DNA of 64,000 bases from Cordylochernes scorpioides (taxonomy: Eukaryota; Arthropoda; Arachnida; Pseudoscorpiones; Chernetidae): contig CP092864.1 in assembly GCA_030710605.1 (NCBI GenBank), positions 145,265,261 through 145,329,260 of the forward strand, written 5' to 3'. Shown here one piece after another: positions 6,490 through 62,515 of the stretch; the first letter of the stretch is position 1, and every line of letters starts with the position of its first letter. The position numbers and the translations under genes are program-made. The notes under the pieces were generated by a model. It was not told the DNA's origin and made no database searches. It was given only the letters and a program-made list of their open reading frames with translations.

Positions 6490-6785
6490 TTCCTTAGTGC
6501 GATGCATTAGCTCGCCATCTGTTATGAAAATTCGAAACTATTATAGACGCGTATGATTTTTATAAATATTAAACAATTTCTACTGTCCTAACTGTAATGG
6601 AAAAAATAATGGGCATGGTATACCAGCCGTATGGTAGATTAAACTGACCAAACCACTAAGAGGGTTCAACACTATTGAGCCAGGCCCTCCAATACTTTTT
6701 TTCATTGCAGCAAAGGCAGTAGAAATTATTTAAATTTTAAAAGAATCATACAGGTCTATTATAGTTTCGAATTTTCATTCCTTAT
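6490..6785 (+). mobile_element. Foldback element with decayed hammerhead-like core
   Basis: About 100-bp inverted ends (ATTCGAAACTATTATAGACG at 6530 versus TCTATTATAGTTTCGAAT near 6753) enclose a short centre, 6625-6690, homologous to the kissing hammerhead cores at 9681, 11317 and 62353. Here the catalytic segments are mutated: the CTGATGA element reads CTATTGA and the GAAA element reads CAAA. Confidence 0.65.
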
Positions 6786-6859
6786 TGCGTTTATCTTGTT
6801 TCTTAGTGAATATTCTTAAATATCTCGTCTCTGTGATTGCAGATTATTTTTCGTATAAA

Positions 6860-9589: not shown

Positions 9590-9870
9590 AAAGCTTATGT
9601 CCATAGTTCATCTAAAATACCCATTCCAAGAGTCTAACAACAGCATCACTATAAAAGGAAAACCAAAAATGCAATATAACAGCGGTATGGTGGATTAAAC
9701 TTGCTAAACCGCTGGGAGGGTTCACCACTGATGAGCGAGGCCCTTCCATTAATTTTTCCATTGCAGTAAGGACAGAATAAATTGTTTATTTTTAAAAAGA
9801 ATCATACTCGTCTATTATAGTTTCGAATTTTGAAAACATATGACGCGCTAATGCATCACAATAAAATAGT
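9590..9870 (+). mobile_element. Foldback element carrying hammerhead-like core (copy B)
   Basis: Terminal arm with TCTATTATAGTTTCGAATT and AAAGAATCATAC on the right, and CTGTCCTTAAAGCTTATGTCC on the left. It shares about 190 bp of internal sequence with the element at 62165-62510. The ribozyme-like core is at 9681-9747. The element ends about 60 bp from the PDZ exon at 9930-10076. Confidence 0.65.
9681..9747 (+). ncRNA. Hammerhead-like core in permuted strand order (copy B)
   Basis: Same layout as the copy at 62353-62419: AGCGGU/ACCGCU hairpin, UGGU/ACCA and CUUGC/GCGAG loop-loop helices, and CUGAUGA intact at 9727-9733. The GAAA element here reads UAAA, which should abolish hammerhead activity, so this copy is probably inactive. 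Helix II differs from the 62353 copy at its middle pair and keeps pairing through a G-U. Confidence 0.45.
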
Positions 9871-11199: not shown

Positions 11200-11475
11200 T
11201 TTTACTGTCCAAAAAGCTTATGTCCATTGTTTGCTAAAATACCACTTCTAAGATTCCACCCTTCAGTGTAGCATATAAAAACAGAATGATCCAATACAGT
11301 ATTAGAGCTCTTAAGAAGCGGTCTGGTAGATTAAATTAGCGAAACCGCTGGGAGAGTTCACCACTGATGAGCCAAGCCCTCCCAATATTTTTTTTATCGC
11401 AGTAAGGACCATAGAAGTTTGATTTATTTATGAAAAAAGACATTCGCGTCTTAATGTTTTCATTTGTTGTATTAT
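11200..11475 (+). mobile_element. Foldback element carrying hammerhead-like core (copy C)
   Basis: Shares AAAGCTTATGTCCATTG and GCAGTAAGGACCATAGAAG with the elements at 9590 and 62165. Terminal arms are more diverged here. A related arm recurs at 11600-11700. The core is at 11317-11382. Confidence 0.6.
11317..11382 (+). ncRNA. Hammerhead-like core in permuted strand order (copy C)
   Basis: All conserved hammerhead nucleotides are present: CUGAUGA at 11364-11370, GAA plus the pairing A at 11341-11344, and GUC at 11321-11323. Helix III is AGCGGU/ACCGCU (11317-11322 with 11344-11349), helix I UGGU/ACCA (11324-11327 with 11360-11363), helix II UUAGC/GCCAA (11336-11340 with 11371-11375, one mismatch). 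The outer pair of helix II is U-A here but C-G in the copy at 62353, a compensatory change. The order of the three strands is not that of a known hammerhead type; see findings. Confidence 0.5.
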
Positions 11476-22614: not shown

Positions 22615-22800
22615 TTTTGTGTGAAGAGAGAGAGATTTGGTTGTGTTTTCTTTGATAATGCTGTCGAAAGGCATTCAAAGAATAACAATCAAAACCTGGA
22701 TTATTTACAATTACTTCTGAAATTTCGAAAAAAAAATCATAAAACTTGGAACAATGAATACAAATACTGCATTTCTAAAAATTCAAATGTATTCAAAAAT
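22615..22800. repeat. Dispersed repeat unit, copy 1 of 3
   Basis: GGTTGTGTTTTCTTTGATAA, AATAACAATCAAAACCTGG and GGAACAATGAATACAAATAC recur at 23410-23590 and partly at 23890-23965. The open frame here is AT-rich and not supported as a gene. Confidence 0.65.
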
Positions 22801-22819
22801 AATAAACATACACGAAGAT

Positions 22820-23235
22820 TGTAGAACGATATTTAAAAATTATCCCGCATGTGTTTCTTTTGAACGAAAATTTGAAATTTATTTTAAGGAGAAATAACGA
22901 TTATTTATATCCTTAGGGATGAAGAATGAAAGGATGAATTGTAAAGAGTAATGATAAACAAAAAAATAGAGTGTCCAGGGATGGGACTCGAACCCAACAG
23001 TGTACCGCTTACCGGGCAGATACCATGTCCACTAGGCTACCCTGAACATATTTTACCGTTCGTTAATATTATATAAAGTAATTTATAATAAAATATAATG
23101 CGGCTTATGATTACTTCATCCATAAGGTTAGAAGTTATCGTTATTTCTTCTCAAAATAAATTTCGGTTTTTCGTTCAAAAGAAACAAATTCGGGATAATA
23201 TTCAAATGTCGTTCTACAATCAAAACCGCTATATA
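22820..23235 (-). repeat. tRNA-related SINE-like copy (family 1)
   Basis: The tRNA-like block at 22972-23047 has GGGTTCGAGTCCC and TAGCCTAGTGG on the minus strand, matching 36-110. The body appears on both sides in opposite orientation (22830-22930 against 23110-23225), so two body copies flank the tRNA-like part. Confidence 0.5.
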
Positions 23236-28994: not shown

Positions 28995-30935
28995 TTAAGC
29001 GTCCATCTTTCTCCTCCAAAGAAATCGGAGGTAGTCCCAATCATTTTCCTTGATGGCCATTACCTGGAAATATCTCCTCATGTCGGCCAAAACTCCGTAC
29101 TTATTTTTCCGAAGTTTTATCCCTATTTCCGGGATTCTCCTCAGTAGAATGGGTCTCCTCCTCAAATACCGTCTTAAGGCGAGTGCGCCGTGTTCTCGAC
29201 AGGAAGCGTCGCCAAATACTGGTCGCATAGGCGTAGCCCTGGACCCATTCCTAAACAAAAGGTGACGAGGCCAATAGTATCCTTCCACCTTTGATTCAGT
29301 ACCTTGTTCTGCATCTAGGTTTTCTTCCACCTTTAAATCAGTACCCTGTTCTGCATCTAGCTTTTCTTCCACTTTTGGATCAGTACCCTGTTCTGCATCT
29401 AGCTTTTCCCCCACCGTCGAATCAGTACCTTGTTCTGCATCTATATTTTTCGCTTCATTTCCATCATGATCTGTTCCCTTGTTGTATTTATCGTCCTTAC
29501 TCTTAGCAAAATCAGATTTATTTATGGTTTTCAAATCTTGGGATTCTGTTTCTTTATAATTATCCTTTATTTTAAATTCCGCATCTCTCGTTGGTCCTAC
29601 TTTCACCAATTTCCTCGATGCTGGAACTCTGACAACTCCTTCCTCATTTTCCTCATTATCATCAATCGATTCAGTTTCATCTGAAATCTTTACTTGGTCA
29701 GCGCCTTCAGCTACCGCTCTAGAATTGTTTACCGGTTCATAACCTTTAATTGCCGTCTCAGAATCCTTCACTCCATCGCCCTTAAGCTTCGCTTCAGAAT
29801 CTTCCCTATCCTTTAAATTTGCATCTTCATATTTTTCATTGGCATTATTTCTACCAAATTGCCCCCACCTTGAGAGCCAATCCCCTGGGTTGCCCTTAAG
29901 TTTTTGTAGATCTCCCCTATTCTTTATCTTAGATTCCGTATCTCCAGTTGGTCTTGCTTCAGAATCATTTACTCCGTCGCCCTTAAGCTTCGCTTCAGAA
30001 TCATTTACTCCGTCGCTCTTAGGCTCATCTTCAGAATCCTTTTTTCCGTCGCCTTCATCTCCTGCTTTTTGACCTTCAGATTCTTTTACTTGATCTCCTT
30101 TATCTCCGTCTTTAGAATTCACTTCAGATTCCTTTACGCCTTCGCCCTTAGGCTTCGCTTCAGAATCATTTACTCCGTCACCCTTAAGATTCGCTTTATC
30201 AGGTTTTGCTTTCGCTTCATTTGCTTTGTTTTTAGCCTCAGCTTCCCTCACACCTACATAGCTATCAACTGCAGTTTCAGAATCCTTCACTTTATTGCAT
30301 TTAACTGCCACATTCAATTCCTTTTCTTTAATAGCACTCACAGCACCCTTTTTGCCCTCATATTCAATATCTATTATAGAGGGAGCTGAACAAGCTTCCT
30401 TTAGCATTCTAGCTTTAGCTTGAGCAGGCTTCACCTCCGTAGCTCTAGCAGTTTTTACAGAATCCTCTTTTTCCACGCCTTCAATTTCATTTTTCATGGA
30501 CTCTTCCGGGCTTTTCGATAGAGACGCAGAAGTAGTCTGAAGTTTGATAACTTTCTGATTATTGGTTTCTGAATTCGGAGAGGCACTAGACGCCCCTGGT
30601 GGAATTTGAGAAGTCTTGGCCTGAGCATCCCTATCCTGCTCACGCATTTCGCGAATTCTGGCCTTTAAATAATATCTCTCCATGATGTAGACTTCACACT
30701 CCTCAAATTCTTTATCAATTTCATCGTCAGTCGCCTCAGCTTTGGCTAATAAAATTTCCTGGTATTGTTCGTTCAATACCACCAGCTCCAAATAGAGAGC
30801 TTCCAATCTATCAAATTTGGCATATATGCCACTTTTGTCAATAAGAGGATTCCTTAACTCTGTATTCATATCATTTACCACCTCGGTAAAAACGCCTCTT
30901 ATCGCCTCTCTCCGCCTTCTGCTAACATCCTCCAT
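28995..30935 (-). CDS. Gag-like N-terminus fused to a reverse-transcriptase fragment (non-autonomous BEL/Pao-like)
   Basis: 646 codons, ATG at 30935, stop at 28995. Residues 1-110 are charged and helical (LEALYLELVVLNEQYQEI, then FEECEVYIMERYYLKARIRE), resembling the N-terminal gag region of BEL/Pao polyproteins. Residues about 150-545 are Lys/Glu/Asp-rich with degenerate repeats (DSEAKLKGDGVND types) and four tandem DAEQGTD units. The last 95 residues resemble the BEL/Pao RT start: YYWPRHLLF, RPVFGDASC, then VLADMRRYFQVMAI and DYLRFLWRR; the frame ends there, before the catalytic YxDD, so it cannot polymerise. It may serve as a packaging or structural protein, or simply be a deletion product kept open by chance. 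BEL/Pao assignment is from motif resemblance. Confidence 0.7.
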   Translation of the reverse strand: MEDVSRRRREAIRGVFTEVVNDMNTELRNPLIDKSGIYAKFDRLEALYLELVVLNEQYQEILLAKAEATDDEIDKEFEECEVYIMERYYLKARIREMREQDRDAQAKTSQIPPGASSASPNSETNNQKVIKLQTTSASLSKSPEESMKNEIEGVEKEDSVKTARATEVKPAQAKARMLKEACSAPSIIDIEYEGKKGAVSAIKEKELNVAVKCNKVKDSETAVDSYVGVREAEAKNKANEAKAKPDKANLKGDGVNDSEAKPKGEGVKESEVNSKDGDKGDQVKESEGQKAGDEGDGKKDSEDEPKSDGVNDSEAKLKGDGVNDSEARPTGDTESKIKNRGDLQKLKGNPGDWLSRWGQFGRNNANEKYEDANLKDREDSEAKLKGDGVKDSETAIKGYEPVNNSRAVAEGADQVKISDETESIDDNEENEEGVVRVPASRKLVKVGPTRDAEFKIKDNYKETESQDLKTINKSDFAKSKDDKYNKGTDHDGNEAKNIDAEQGTDSTVGEKLDAEQGTDPKVEEKLDAEQGTDLKVEENLDAEQGTESKVEGYYWPRHLLFRNGSRATPMRPVFGDASCREHGALALRRYLRRRPILLRRIPEIGIKLRKNKYGVLADMRRYFQVMAIKENDWDYLRFLWRRKMDA

Positions 30936-57984: not shown

Positions 57985-58480
57985 ATTTTGAGCAGACAGG
58001 AAAAAACCTTTTTTCCTTCCATGAACATAATGGTTCTAGTATGTCCAGTCTTTAATCTTGTAAATTTTGTGGCTTCGTTTCTTGAAAGCTGTGATGATAT
58101 TGAGTCTCCAGGTCTTGTCCCTTCATACCAGTGGTGGGCCATACTATTGATTCATTATTTGGATATATCTCTATTCTGTTGTATCCATCTATATTATCTA
58201 TGTTTTCAGAAGATAGGATAGCTGCTGACTTTGCTAAGCCATTGACATTCCCCCTAATGCCTACATGCGATCGGATCCACTGAAATCTGCTGTCATAGTG
58301 AAGTGAGTGAATATTTTTGACAATTTATCTCAAAATTTGTAAGTTACTTGTATAGCAGATTTCTATAAACTTTAGGACTTATAGTGAATCTGATAGAAAG
58401 ACAAAGTCGTGAGGAGCTGCTTTATCCAAATGCTCTAGAGCAAAATTGATTGCATGTAACTCGGCAAGCCAAGGAGGATA
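57985..58480 (-). pseudogene. LINE RNase H fragment, inverted partner
   Basis: On the minus strand this matches the plus-strand fragment at 61430-61960: TTACATGCAATCAATTTTGC, TTGGATAA, GCAGCTCCTCAC and TATCAGATTCACTAT occur in both. Here the frame has stops (for example after SDSL). It encodes the end of the RNase H domain and C-terminus of a non-LTR retrotransposon. Confidence 0.65.
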
Positions 58481-58805
58481 TCAAGTATGAGTTGATTTAT
58501 TGCAATTAGCTTCAATAACACTGACTAACACAATTTGTTGTTTTTTTAAATTTAATATACTTTTTTTAATCGTACCTATAAAATTATATAGGGTTAATAT
58601 ATATTTAAAAAGTAAAATAAATATTATTTTCATTAGAGGAATCCCACTGATGGTCATCTGGTATGATGTCACGCCCTGAAGTCGGACAGATCTCCCCGAC
58701 TATTGCCATGTCGAGGAATAGCTTCAGAACAGACCTCTGCTAAGATGACAGGTATTCTCTGCTAGAAGAGAAGACTATCTCCTCCCTATATATATATATA
58801 TATAT
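58481..58805. other. AT-rich stretch ending in a TA microsatellite
   Basis: No gene seen. 58670-58780 is a moderately GC-rich block of unknown origin. The (TA)n run at 58788-58808 is the left flank of the ORF1-like element. Confidence 0.5.
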
Positions 58806-58987
58806 ATACGTTGACCGTGCGGACGCGCGTCGCACGAGCTCCGCGTATTTCGCCTTTTTCATCCCGTAAACTCAATTCTTACTTAACTAATTTCATATCA
58901 TCTTGTTCGCCTTAATTCGGGCATCACTTCAAACCATCTCTCAGAAAATCTCATCAAATTTCATATTTTCCTGTTTTTCATAATTTA

Positions 58988-59012
58988 GCAAAGCTACAAG
59001 TCGTAGCTTTGC
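58988..59012 (+). promoter_or_regulatory. Perfect hairpin just upstream of the ORF1 start codon
   Basis: GCAAAGCTAC pairs perfectly with GTAGCTTTGC around AAGTC, ten base pairs, ending nine bases before the ATG at 59022. It could affect scanning or start choice, or be a structural signal of the element RNA. Role inferred only from position. Confidence 0.5.
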
Positions 59013-59021
59013 ATCATTGCC

Positions 59022-60695
59022 ATGGCAACGGCCAAGTTGGTCGTTGCGTCACCAAACACGTCATCTGCTGCGGTAGTCTCATTGGTTGCTCACCCTCATG
59101 AAGAAATCTCATTTACATCAAAGCCATCAATCGCTAAATTACCATCTCAAAAGAAAAACAAACAGCAAGACAATTTGCATACCCAAAGAAGACAATTTTC
59201 GCCTCAAGAGTGGAAAAAATTTGAAGAATCTCGAAAAGAAACATACGAAAAAAGAAGTAAAAACATAAACTCCACCATCCAATTCACCGCCCTCTCAGAG
59301 TGCAGTGCTGAGGAGCACCTATCCTCTATAGCCAAAATCATTGGACACGAAAACATCCACTCGGTTGGAAAGATGAATGGCCAGGCCGTTGTGTCGGTTG
59401 CCGATGGTGAACAGGCCCTACTACTCATTAACAACGGCTTTGCTGTAAGAGGCAACACCATCTACCCAACACCCCTATTCAACCCCCCAAAGAAATACAT
59501 TCTCTCAGGAATACTTGCCTTCATCCCAGATGAAGAGGTCACCAAAGCCCTGGCGCCATTCGGAGAGATCCTCAGCATCAGGCCCCTGCCTTTCCCCACC
59601 GAGAACCCACTATTTAAACACCTCTCATCTCTTAGAAGAGAGGTCGTGCTGAAGAGAAGAGAATCAACCGACATGCCGGCAATCATCCCAATCGACTACA
59701 TGCAAAGGACCTTTAAGGTCTTTGTGGGCGAAGACACCATCTGCCTGAGATGTAAGAGACATGGACATATTAAATCCAAATGCCCATTCAACCCGGAAAT
59801 CAGAGCCAACATCACAAGAACTTATTCAGAAGTCATCAATCCCACAGCCCCACCCGCTGTGCCAGGCCCATCAGGAGAAACAGTTACAGTGAAAACCACC
59901 GCGAATGATGAAACCTTGGGCAGGAAAAGAACACTGTCTGAGACGTCTAACGACAACACCGTAGAGGAGTGTACTGACCAGGGCAAAAGGCCAAAACCAA
60001 GTCCACCAACAATCGAAACCCCACTTCCCAAGAACATCTCGATGAATATTGAAGTGAAAAGGATTAACGTCGCTAGTTCTGCTGAGGCTGACAATCTCGA
60101 GACTCCCCCCAGCGAAATCCCTGTCGTACAATCCATTCTAATGAAAGACGGAAACGATTCAGATGACGACGCTCTTTCCACCAAGTCCGATTTATCAATG
60201 ACGTCCTCGCAATTCGAAACCGAATTCTGCGAAGAAACAAAACCAGTCCCCCCTGGTGGAGGAACAGCCATTCACCCGTGTTCTGAATCGAGGACCGACG
60301 CAGGAACCGAGGACTTTGACGAAGACACATCAGCCAGGTGCTCACAGTGGTCGATGGACTCCTCTCAACTCCAGAGGGAGTTGATAGACTGCCAGCACAG
60401 AGACAACCCTAAAATGGAAAGGATCATCGCGTTGGTATTCAAAAGGACAGGTACTTCTAGACAGACCAAGGTCTGTCAACAGCTTGAACTGCACCCCGAC
60501 CTGAAGTATAGGACCTCCTGCTACCTCAAGAAATGTGAAGATTTTAAGTCAAAAAACTTCAGAGACCTCAATACCGACCAAAAAAGAGCACTCAACGATA
60601 AAATAGGCAAATTGAGGCTAATTCAAACGGAGATCGACAAGTATGATGCAATATACGATGCAATCCTCGATGCAAAATATCCGACGAAGAAGTGA
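59022..60695 (+). CDS. LINE ORF1 (Gag-like RNA-binding protein) with CCHC zinc knuckle
   Basis: 557 codons, intact. The start is the first ATG after the hairpin, in good context (GCCATGG). Residues 50-85 are basic and helical. Residues about 85-235 look like an RNA-binding fold, with RRM-like wording at 159-190 (YILSGILAFIPDEEV, APFGEILSIRPLPF). A single zinc knuckle follows: C241-x2-C244-x4-H249-x4-C254 (CLRCKRHGHIKSKC). Residues 270-450 are a Ser/Thr/acidic linker, and the last 90 residues form a charged helical domain (ERIIALVFKRTGTSRQTKV to IGKLRLIQTEIDKYDAI). LINE ORF1 proteins bind element RNA and form the particle used in retrotransposition. Which LINE clade is unclear. No ORF2 is adjacent. 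Confidence 0.75.
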   Translation: MATAKLVVASPNTSSAAVVSLVAHPHEEISFTSKPSIAKLPSQKKNKQQDNLHTQRRQFSPQEWKKFEESRKETYEKRSKNINSTIQFTALSECSAEEHLSSIAKIIGHENIHSVGKMNGQAVVSVADGEQALLLINNGFAVRGNTIYPTPLFNPPKKYILSGILAFIPDEEVTKALAPFGEILSIRPLPFPTENPLFKHLSSLRREVVLKRRESTDMPAIIPIDYMQRTFKVFVGEDTICLRCKRHGHIKSKCPFNPEIRANITRTYSEVINPTAPPAVPGPSGETVTVKTTANDETLGRKRTLSETSNDNTVEECTDQGKRPKPSPPTIETPLPKNISMNIEVKRINVASSAEADNLETPPSEIPVVQSILMKDGNDSDDDALSTKSDLSMTSSQFETEFCEETKPVPPGGGTAIHPCSESRTDAGTEDFDEDTSARCSQWSMDSSQLQRELIDCQHRDNPKMERIIALVFKRTGTSRQTKVCQQLELHPDLKYRTSCYLKKCEDFKSKNFRDLNTDQKRALNDKIGKLRLIQTEIDKYDAIYDAILDAKYPTKK

Positions 60696-60999
60696 CCGCT
60701 TAATGCGTCTCAGCACGACAACTCTGACCAACAAGAAGACAGGAACCTAGATAAAAAAACCTAAGCCCACTCCCCTAGAAGTGAAGACAACCCCTCCGCC
60801 ATGTATAGAAATGGAAATAGACGGAAAGACTACAACAGATAGATCAACTCCTTCTTGATACCCCTTCCCCTCTGACTGCCGACTGTATTTGCCTCTTTTA
60901 ACTGAATAAAGACCGTTTTTCGCGTATATATATATATATATAGATAGATAGATAGAGAGATCGGTATAATGTGATAATTCGATTTACATTGAAATTTTA

Positions 61000-61430
61000 T
61001 TGCTAAGGATTTGATATATATTTCTTTGTAGTGTTGATGCATTATATCAAGAAATGTTGTCCGTTTTTCTCTATCAGCTCTCGTTTTAGATACATACTCT
61101 TCGATTAGATCAATCAAATATAAATCTCCGAGGATAAGTTTCTTTATTAACACTATTAACGAGTTTACAAACTAGGGATATAAAACGACCCTTCTACAGG
61201 TCCTCTTCATAAAAATATTTAGCTGTAGAAGGGTCGTTTTATATCCCTAGAGTTTGTAAACTCGTTAAAAGTGTAATAAATAAACATATCCTCGGAGATT
61301 TATATTTGATTGATCTAATCTAGGAGTATTTATCTAAAACGAGAGCTGATAGAGAAAAACGGACAACATTTATTGATTTAATGCATCAAACTACAAAGAA
61401 ATATATATCAAATCTTCGGCAACAGATTTG
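61000..61430. mobile_element. Large foldback element (near-palindrome)
   Basis: Arms of about 200 bp meet near 61205: left AAACTAGGGATATAAAACGA and CCCTTCTACAGG, right CTGTAGAAGGGTCGTTTTAT and CCCTAGAGTTTGTAAACTCG. Outer parts also match (GAGAGCTGATAGAGAAAAAC on the right against the left arm near 61070). It carries the CTTCTACAGG motif of the Penelope-associated foldbacks. No gene; the minus-strand open frame is part of the arm. Confidence 0.75.
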
Positions 61431-61960
61431 TGTTGGTCAGTGTTATTGAAGCTAATTGTAATAAATCATCCTTGGTGTCCTCCTTACCTTGCTGAGTTAC
61501 ATGCAATCAATTTTGCTCTTAAGCATTTGGATAAGGCAGCTCCTCACCACTTTGTATTTCTATCAGATTCACTATCAGCCCTAAAGTCCATAGAAAACTG
61601 CTATGCAAGTAACTTACAAATTCTGAGGGAAATTTTCAAAAATATCAACTCACTTCACTATGACAGCAGATTGACATTTCAGTGGATCCCATCTCATGTT
61701 GGCATTAGAGGGAATGAAATTGCCGATGGCTTAGTAAGGTCAGCAGCTATCCTAGCTCTGAAACCTGGATAATATAGATGGATACAACAGAATAGATATA
61801 TATCCAAAGAATGGATCAATAGTATGGCCCACCATTGGAATGAAGGAACAACACCTGGATATCATCACAGCTTTCTAAAAAGGAAGCCACAACCAAGATT
61901 AAAGACAGAACATACTAGACCCATTATGTTCATTGATGGAGAAAAGGTTTTTCCTGTTTG
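61430..61960 (+). pseudogene. LINE RNase H fragment
   Basis: The plus frame 61428-61772 reads YLAELHAINFALKHLD, FVFLSDSLSALKSIEN and LTFQWIPSHVGIRGNEIAD, the E, D and HxGxxGNExAD motifs of the LINE RNase H. After a stop at 61770 the C-terminal region continues with frameshifts to about 61960 (TATGTTCATTGATGGAGAA). RT and endonuclease are missing. Inverted partner at 57985-58480. Confidence 0.75.
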
Positions 61961-62164
61961 AATTGATATTTTATTAATCTAATTGATACAGAGGATTATA
62001 AATCTAATAATACATACTCTTCCTAACATTAAGGAGCATTCTAAAATAAGTAGTTATCTATTTTTTTTTAACAATAATAATTTTAAAAATTAAGAATAGG
62101 TTTATAAAAATATTCAACTAATTTTATTTAATTAAATCATTGATACCTATCATAGATAATATAA

Positions 62165-62515
62165 ATAGTATAATGCATTAGCGCGCCATCTGTAATCAAA
62201 ATTGGAAACTATTATAGATGCGTATTATTCTTTTAAAAATTAAACAATTCTACTATCCTCAAAGCTTATGTCCATAGTTCATCTAAAATACCCACTCCAA
62301 GAGTCTAGCATCAGTATCACTATAGAAGGAAGATCTAAAAATGCAATATAACAGCGGTATGGTAGATTGAACTGGCGAAACCGCTGGGAGGGTTCACCAC
62401 TGATGAGCCAGGCCCTTCTATTAATTTTTCCATTACAGTAAGGACAGTAGAAATTGTTTATTTTTGAAAAGAATCATACCTGTCTATAATAGTTTCGAAT
62501 AATATAAATATGATC
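62165..62515 (+). mobile_element. Foldback element carrying the best hammerhead-like core (copy D)
   Basis: Inverted ends of about 75 bp: GAAACTATTATAGATGCGTA and ACAATTCTACTATCCTC on the left, GGACAGTAGAAATTGTT and GTCTATAATAGTTTCGAAT on the right. The interior of about 170 bp is shared with 9590-9870 and holds the core at 62353-62419. No protein is encoded. Confidence 0.7.
62353..62419 (+). ncRNA. Hammerhead-like core in permuted strand order (copy D, intact)
   Basis: Three segments carry every conserved hammerhead position. First, AGCGGU-A then UGGU (62353-62363): helix III, cleavage-site UA, helix I. Second, CUGGC-GAA-ACCGCU (62372-62385): helix II, GAA, helix III. Third, ACCA-CUGAUGA-GCCAG (62396-62411): helix I, core, helix II. 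Each helix abuts the core exactly as in a true hammerhead. The order of the last two segments is swapped relative to all standard types, so the fold would be two adjacent hairpins (helix III; and a GGGAGGG/CCCUUCU stem at 62386-62392 with 62413-62419) whose loops kiss through helices I and II. Activity is unproven. Confidence 0.5.

Follow-up and report, generated by a model that had tools for sequence, protein, structure and literature searches.

A putative hammerhead ribozyme with a non-canonical strand order was found at positions 62352-62418 of the stretch examined, a 64,000-nt window of the genome of Cordylochernes scorpioides, in whose numbering the coordinates below are given. The ribozyme lies within a repeat that occurs at tens of thousands of places in this genome. 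The repeat is probably a non-autonomous, retrozyme-like retroelement of C. scorpioides, and its ribozyme a type-SGC (non-circularly permuted) hammerhead.

Layout of the ribozyme

The strands run in the order III-UH-I, then II-GAAA-III, then I-CUGAUGA-II, with the cleavage site (S), GAAA (G) and CUGAUGA (C) blocks following one another on the forward strand. This S-G-C order is not the canonical circular order C-G-S of types I, II and III. The S block (62352-62363) consists of the 5' side of stem III, the UH dinucleotide U62358 A62359 and the 5' side of stem I, and the hammerhead layout predicts cleavage between 62359 and 62360. The G block (62372-62386) holds the 3' side of stem II, GAAA (62377-62380) and the 3' side of stem III, and the C block (62396-62411) holds the 3' side of stem I, CUGAUGA (62400-62406) and the 5' side of stem II. 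Stem III pairs 62352-62358 with 62380-62386 (7 bp including U16.1-A15.1), stem I pairs 62360-62363 with 62396-62399 and stem II pairs 62372-62376 with 62407-62411. All three stems abut the conserved strands exactly. Pairing counts and fold prediction indicate a fourth helix, 62387-62392 with 62413-62418, which ties stems I and II together and whose 5' side follows stem III with a link of zero nucleotides.

A scan of both strands for the SGC layout gave this copy as its single match in the window. The layout was absent from all 100 dinucleotide shuffles of the window, relaxed stems included, a control that applies to the SGC order alone and does not extend to a free choice among block orders. 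An earlier note on this DNA had described the strand order with its abutting stems, and for this copy the description holds. It makes no mention of the fourth helix, of the tandem and palindromic arrangement of the repeat, or of the flanking duplication and the inverted left arm of the carrier described below.

Nested minimum-energy folding predicted the stem III and fourth-helix hairpins in four of five copies, without the pseudoknot, and the fold z-scores of the five copies were weak (−0.86 to −2.57). In most copies of the repeat, stem I has 4 bp and an A-C mismatch. A G-C pair replaces this mismatch in 13 of the 39 copies of the beta family (see below), giving a helix of up to 9 bp. Stems I and II are linked by 3 nt in copies with a 9-bp stem I and by 8 nt in the others, unless the A-C mismatch is bridged. 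The outer G-U pairs of the extended beta stem I compete with the fourth helix.

Rfam hammerhead models follow the classical strand orders. The Rfam scan at 62353 found no hammerhead match at the gathering score or up to an E value of 10, as expected for such models, and elements of this kind can therefore escape standard annotation. RF00163 had no match over the whole genome, but its control likewise matched nowhere, which makes this negative uninformative. Three sub-threshold microRNA matches from Rfam all fell on palindrome centres and were discarded.

Other copies in the window

Three more copies were located on the forward strand. The beta-family copy at 11316-11386 keeps the core and has a single mismatch, A-C, at the central pair of stem II (UUAGC/GCCAA). 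An alpha-family copy at 9680-9750 no longer has G12 (TAAA) and, judged by its sequence, should be dead. The other alpha-family copy, at 6624-6694, is decayed, with G12 lost and CUGAUGA partly lost. Three of the four copies are damaged, and 62353 is the only intact ribozyme in the window.

The claim of the earlier note that all copies retain every conserved nucleotide is correct for 62353 and for the core at 11317, but fails at 9681 and at 6625. The U-G wobble that it reported for the middle pair of stem II at 9681 is real, but sits in a copy without G12. Its replacement of the outer stem II pair C-G by U-A, with pairing kept, proved genuine and is fixed between families.

Families and covariation

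A profile search of the window and 132 genome loci yielded 215 matches, 176 of them nearly full length. Identical cores and those running off their locus were dropped, leaving 126 rows, to which the window copy (62345-62425) was added (n = 127). The loci are not a random sample, many being the best matches of four queries. Based on flank motifs, the copies were divided into the families alpha (42), beta (39), gamma (28) and epsilon (15), with three unassigned.

The covariation score of the structure was 0.141 against 0.089 in shuffled alignments. The proportion of paired cells was 89.8% against 87.0%, and cells with both sides changed numbered 106 against 35.9. None of 500 shuffles reached any of these three values, a test that kinship among the copies inflates. 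Slid structures scored at most 0.076. On two further counts, pairs with double changes and pair types, the structure did not exceed the shuffles, of which 89 and 166 out of 500, respectively, reached its value. The earlier note had proposed a covariation check of stems I, II and III; in these 127 copies stems I and II covary, but stem III does so weakly, with 82.7% of its cells paired, few double changes and an outermost pair that is unpaired in 89 copies.

Individual pairs differ by family. Stem II pair 34-82 is C-G in 38 of 42 alpha copies, U-A in 38 of 39 beta and all 15 epsilon copies, and A-U in 21 of 28 gamma copies. Stem I pair 23-69 is G-C in all 42 alpha and 35 of 39 beta copies and A-U in 14 of 15 epsilon copies. 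Pair 54-89 of the fourth helix is G-C in 29 of 42 alpha and 34 of 39 beta copies and A-U in 14 of 15 epsilon copies; it is mixed in gamma (G-C in 10 of 28) and A-C in nine of the 42 alpha copies. Among the four family majorities, substitutions in paired columns are confined to three pairs, one each in stems I, II and IV, and each is compensated. A further paired column shows a one-base deletion in the gamma and epsilon majorities. Judged from these alignments, the compensated changes are few independent events, each of which restored pairing. CUGAnGA, GAAA and UH are the majority state in each of the four families, with many single copies damaged.

Counts over the whole genome agree with the stem II exchange. 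A 40-mer spanning from one side of stem II to the other was present 13,344 times with C..G, 16,950 times with T..A and 333 times with C..A, the three combinations tallied, and its reversed controls were found nowhere. Covariation and genome-wide counts together make a hammerhead core of non-canonical order well supported, including the joining of two hairpins through stems I and II that the earlier note had drawn.

Abundance in the genome

The 17-nt core piece GGTTCACCACTGATGAG has 77,290 exact copies in the genome and its reversed control none. An alpha 65-mer matched at 22,669 places with up to three mismatches, against none for its control; the 100 places listed were all perfect and all within the first 49 Mb of C1. 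The 30 places at which the 17-mer first occurs along C1 comprise eight intact copies, two near-intact copies and 20 that are neither; these places span about 0.56 Mb with some duplicated stretches, which makes the intact share a rough figure. Among these 20 are decayed copies and also subfamilies, themselves repeated, that lack the S or the G block.

Such subfamilies retain the C block. The S block is absent from those at L040, L053, L055, L060, L063 and L067, and both the S and G blocks are absent from those at L042, L047, L051 and L062. Subfamilies without an S block would be unable to self-cut and may ride on the machinery of intact copies. As subfamilies that lack one or other of these blocks have increased in number, some amplification goes on without cleavage.

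Outside the animal, 21 word matches of the 17-mer in prokaryote genomes (about 30 expected, 2 × 257 billion / 4^17) and 20 word matches of a 16-mer in viral contigs were read as chance.

The carrier element

The intact ribozyme is carried by a putative retroposed element copy of the alpha family in fold-back form, at 62168-62498 on the forward strand (repeat block 62165-62500). It is delimited by a 12-bp direct repeat, the presumed target-site duplication ATAATATAAATA, at 62156-62167 on the left and 62499-62510 on the right. The inverted left arm, at 62168-62252 on the reverse strand with an approximate inner end, is the reverse complement of the 3' tail, as seen from inverted repeats and an alignment of 20 alpha copies. 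A TATA-like motif, TATAGAAG, is located at 62321-62328 on the forward strand, where the majority sequences of alpha and beta have TATAAAAG; it may serve as a promoter. Conserved islands upstream of the ribozyme, AGCTTATGT-CATAG and TATA(T/A)AA (for example at 62265-62328), were observed in the four family majorities, imperfectly in gamma and epsilon, and are perhaps an internal promoter. A pol III reading of TATA, ribozyme and T-run was dropped since epsilon has no T-run.

Comparison of the four family majorities gave identical columns at 57 of 67 ribozyme positions; upstream the figure was 41 of 130, and downstream 40 of 110. Between one alpha and one beta unit, 63 of 67 positions are identical inside the ribozyme and 211 of 327 outside it. 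By this measure, sequence conservation within the repeat is centred on the ribozyme.

The repeat also occurs in tandem. Units of 372 bp form an array at L016 (3.9 copies, 98% matches, cores intact), and units of 371 bp one at L150 (2.7 copies) without an inverted arm of its own. At C1:7156396-7161964, the beta 40-mer has ten exact matches on the minus strand, spaced at multiples of 372, which face four on the plus strand, and further arrays are visible among the alpha 65-mer and beta 40-mer matches listed. Head-to-head palindromes were found at L016, L151 and L152. Several of the 20 aligned alpha copies have inverted arms, with the 3' tail at their outer ends and the variable 5' side in the centre; in this alignment 5' sides and junctions are variable, and 5' sides are truncated. 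On C11, a 73-bp minisatellite flanks a beta array on both sides (L016:913-1053, L153:270-600), and the array seems to be inserted into it.

An initial set of end points was too scattered to serve as element ends, and repeat blocks were analysed instead, 70 remaining out of 86 once those with identical flanks were removed. Direct repeats of at least 9 nt flank 17 of these 70 blocks, at least two pairs of which look like copies of one duplicated place, against 3.1% of 1,366 mismatched pairs. Repeats of at least 10 nt flank 13 blocks, against 0.9% of mismatched pairs. The remaining 53 blocks have no flanking duplication of 9 nt or longer. Where found, the duplications vary in length from 9 to 13 nt. 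No candidates came from a DNA search that used the AT-rich tail as its query and that passes over common words.

Proposed mechanism

Three features point to target-primed reverse transcription of circular or multimeric RNA: duplications of variable length, truncation of the 5' side and a constant length of the tandem unit. Multimeric transcripts would self-cleave in every unit on the 3' side of H17, which is A in alpha and C in beta, gamma and epsilon, and a host RNA ligase would circularise the monomers to RNAs of about 371 nt. The circles would then be copied through target-primed synthesis by a non-LTR reverse transcriptase going round each of them more than once, and this would account for the three features. 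The palindromes could result from fold-back or from two-sided priming on the same 3' tail.

Alternative explanations

A real type-SGC ribozyme might instead sit in a MITE-like DNA transposon that is moved by a transposase, the ribozyme just processing transcripts. Long inverted arms (for example 6513-6613 and 6689-6789) and the interspersion of copies on both strands would fit such an element. The duplications of 9 to 13 nt, not fixed in length, would not, nor would the constant length of the tandem units, the truncated 5' sides or the variability of 5' sides and junctions, and terminal inverted repeats are not in every copy, as the L150 tandem array without its own arm illustrates. This origin is considered unlikely. 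Less likely again is a hammerhead assembled from neighbouring units of a multimer, or from two RNA molecules, in the canonical block order, with a monomer that is not SGC-folded. Tandem arrays do exist, and the S and C blocks with the G block of the next unit would give the type III order; such a fold requires loops of some 300 nt, however, and 79-81 nt suffice for cleavage by published type-SGC ribozymes, each a single short transcript (PMC10085705).

The ribozyme could also be a relic that once cut, the copies of today having spread in some other way and the motif persisting by copying alone. The multiplication of subfamilies without the S or G block agrees with this, as do the 20 of 30 sampled places that are neither intact nor near-intact and the damage to three of the four window copies. 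Eight of the 30 sampled places are intact, however, 22,669 places lie within three mismatches of the alpha 65-mer (100 perfect among those listed), and tandem arrays of 98% similar units have intact cores, so that a relic appears improbable. Least credible is a chance resemblance of two ordinary hairpins to a hammerhead. Both hairpins do appear in the minimum-energy fold of four of five copies without any pseudoknot, and an Rfam hammerhead match is absent up to E 10, but covariation is seen in the two stems (I and II) through which the hairpins are joined, the full core and the UH rule are kept in the four family majorities, and no shuffle out of 100 produced the SGC layout.

Comparison with type-SGC hammerheads

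The likeness of the retrozyme-like repeat to type-SGC hammerheads was drawn from their published description. This non-circular permutation, with the HRIMA-1 motif and its variants, was described from environmental RNA by Eckert et al. 2023 (PMC10085705), who report in vitro cleavage, disruptive and compensatory mutants, and covariation. The earlier note was right that the order is not a circular permutation of types I-III, and according to that description the SGC order itself is not new but was published in 2023. Shared features are the S-G-C order, CUGAnGA, GAAA, UH, stems I-III and a helix that ties stems I and II. The zero-nucleotide link to stem III, which the earlier note had held to be a steric worry, is discussed in the same paper (PMC10085705), and a few of the natural type-SGC ribozymes published there have such a link. 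The linker between stems I and II is typically three nucleotides in type SGC (PMC10085705); stem I sets the C. scorpioides repeat apart, with 4 bp and an A-C mismatch in most copies and 9 bp in part of beta. The host differs as well: the 583 type-SGC sequences are described as including none from the genome of a known organism (PMC10085705), whereas the repeat occupies tens of thousands of places in a named animal genome.

Within the full-text literature searched, which leaves most subscription papers outside, type-SGC and HRIMA hammerheads were traced to PMC10085705 alone, and a non-circular permutation of the hammerhead ribozyme to that paper and two structure-alignment tools. No report of a type-SGC hammerhead in an animal was among the best literature matches listed for pseudoscorpion, arachnid and retrozyme topics.

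Comparison with retrozymes and Penelope-like elements

Metazoan non-LTR retrozymes were described by Cervera and de la Pena 2020 as tandem repeats of 150-450 bp with low G+C, duplications over 4 bp and type I hammerheads, expressed as linear and circular RNA (PMC7229834). In terms of that description, the C. scorpioides repeat resembles them in its tandem units of 371/372 bp with one hammerhead per unit, its low G+C content (34.2% and 37.4% in one unit each, against 39.1% in the window) and its target-site duplications of more than 4 bp (9 to 13 nt, 17 of 70 blocks). It differs in its hammerhead, which is of type SGC and not type I, and in its palindromic arrays, a strong feature here unlike in metazoan retrozymes. 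By analogy, it fits a metazoan retrozyme with an SGC in place of a type I ribozyme; strict membership fails because of the hammerhead type.

Penelope-like elements are presented as a strong candidate engine of metazoan retrozymes, and these elements and Terminons carry minimal type I hammerheads and occur in tandem (PMC7229834). They share with the C. scorpioides repeat the presence of hammerheads in tandem-occurring retroelements but, unlike it, are autonomous and coding.

Neighbouring features of the window

A large tandem array of a 58-bp unit was detected from 26151 onward (279 register positions of a 300-nt reference), and a 646-aa ORF at 28995-30935, with no Pfam match, seems to lie inside it. 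Inverted repeats of 210 nt, at 58284-58493 and 61463-61672, enclose a 557-aa ORF (59022-60695). This ORF has no Pfam match and resembles C. scorpioides proteins with mobile-element-like names; a protein search gave eight matches, all from C. scorpioides, the best with 87% identity over 53%. The region 58284-61672 is probably a transposon. A weak tRNA match on the minus strand at 22973-23046 (30.7 bits, cut-off 29) was found within inverted-repeat arms at 22817-22989 and 22832-22968, and is perhaps a tRNA-derived mobile element.

Significance

We lean towards the view that an animal genome houses a retrozyme class built on the SGC hammerhead, and that the orphan SGC RNAs of metatranscriptomes descend from this class or are its sister. 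With its very large number of covarying copies, a named animal would provide a host, a likely carrier and test material for the permuted ribozyme. If the proposal is true, the permuted hammerhead, like the classical one, occurs in free RNA replicons as well as in animal retroelements, and a double-pseudoknot hammerhead does the job that type I does in other animals. With several diverged families in one genome, the origin of such permutations would become testable.
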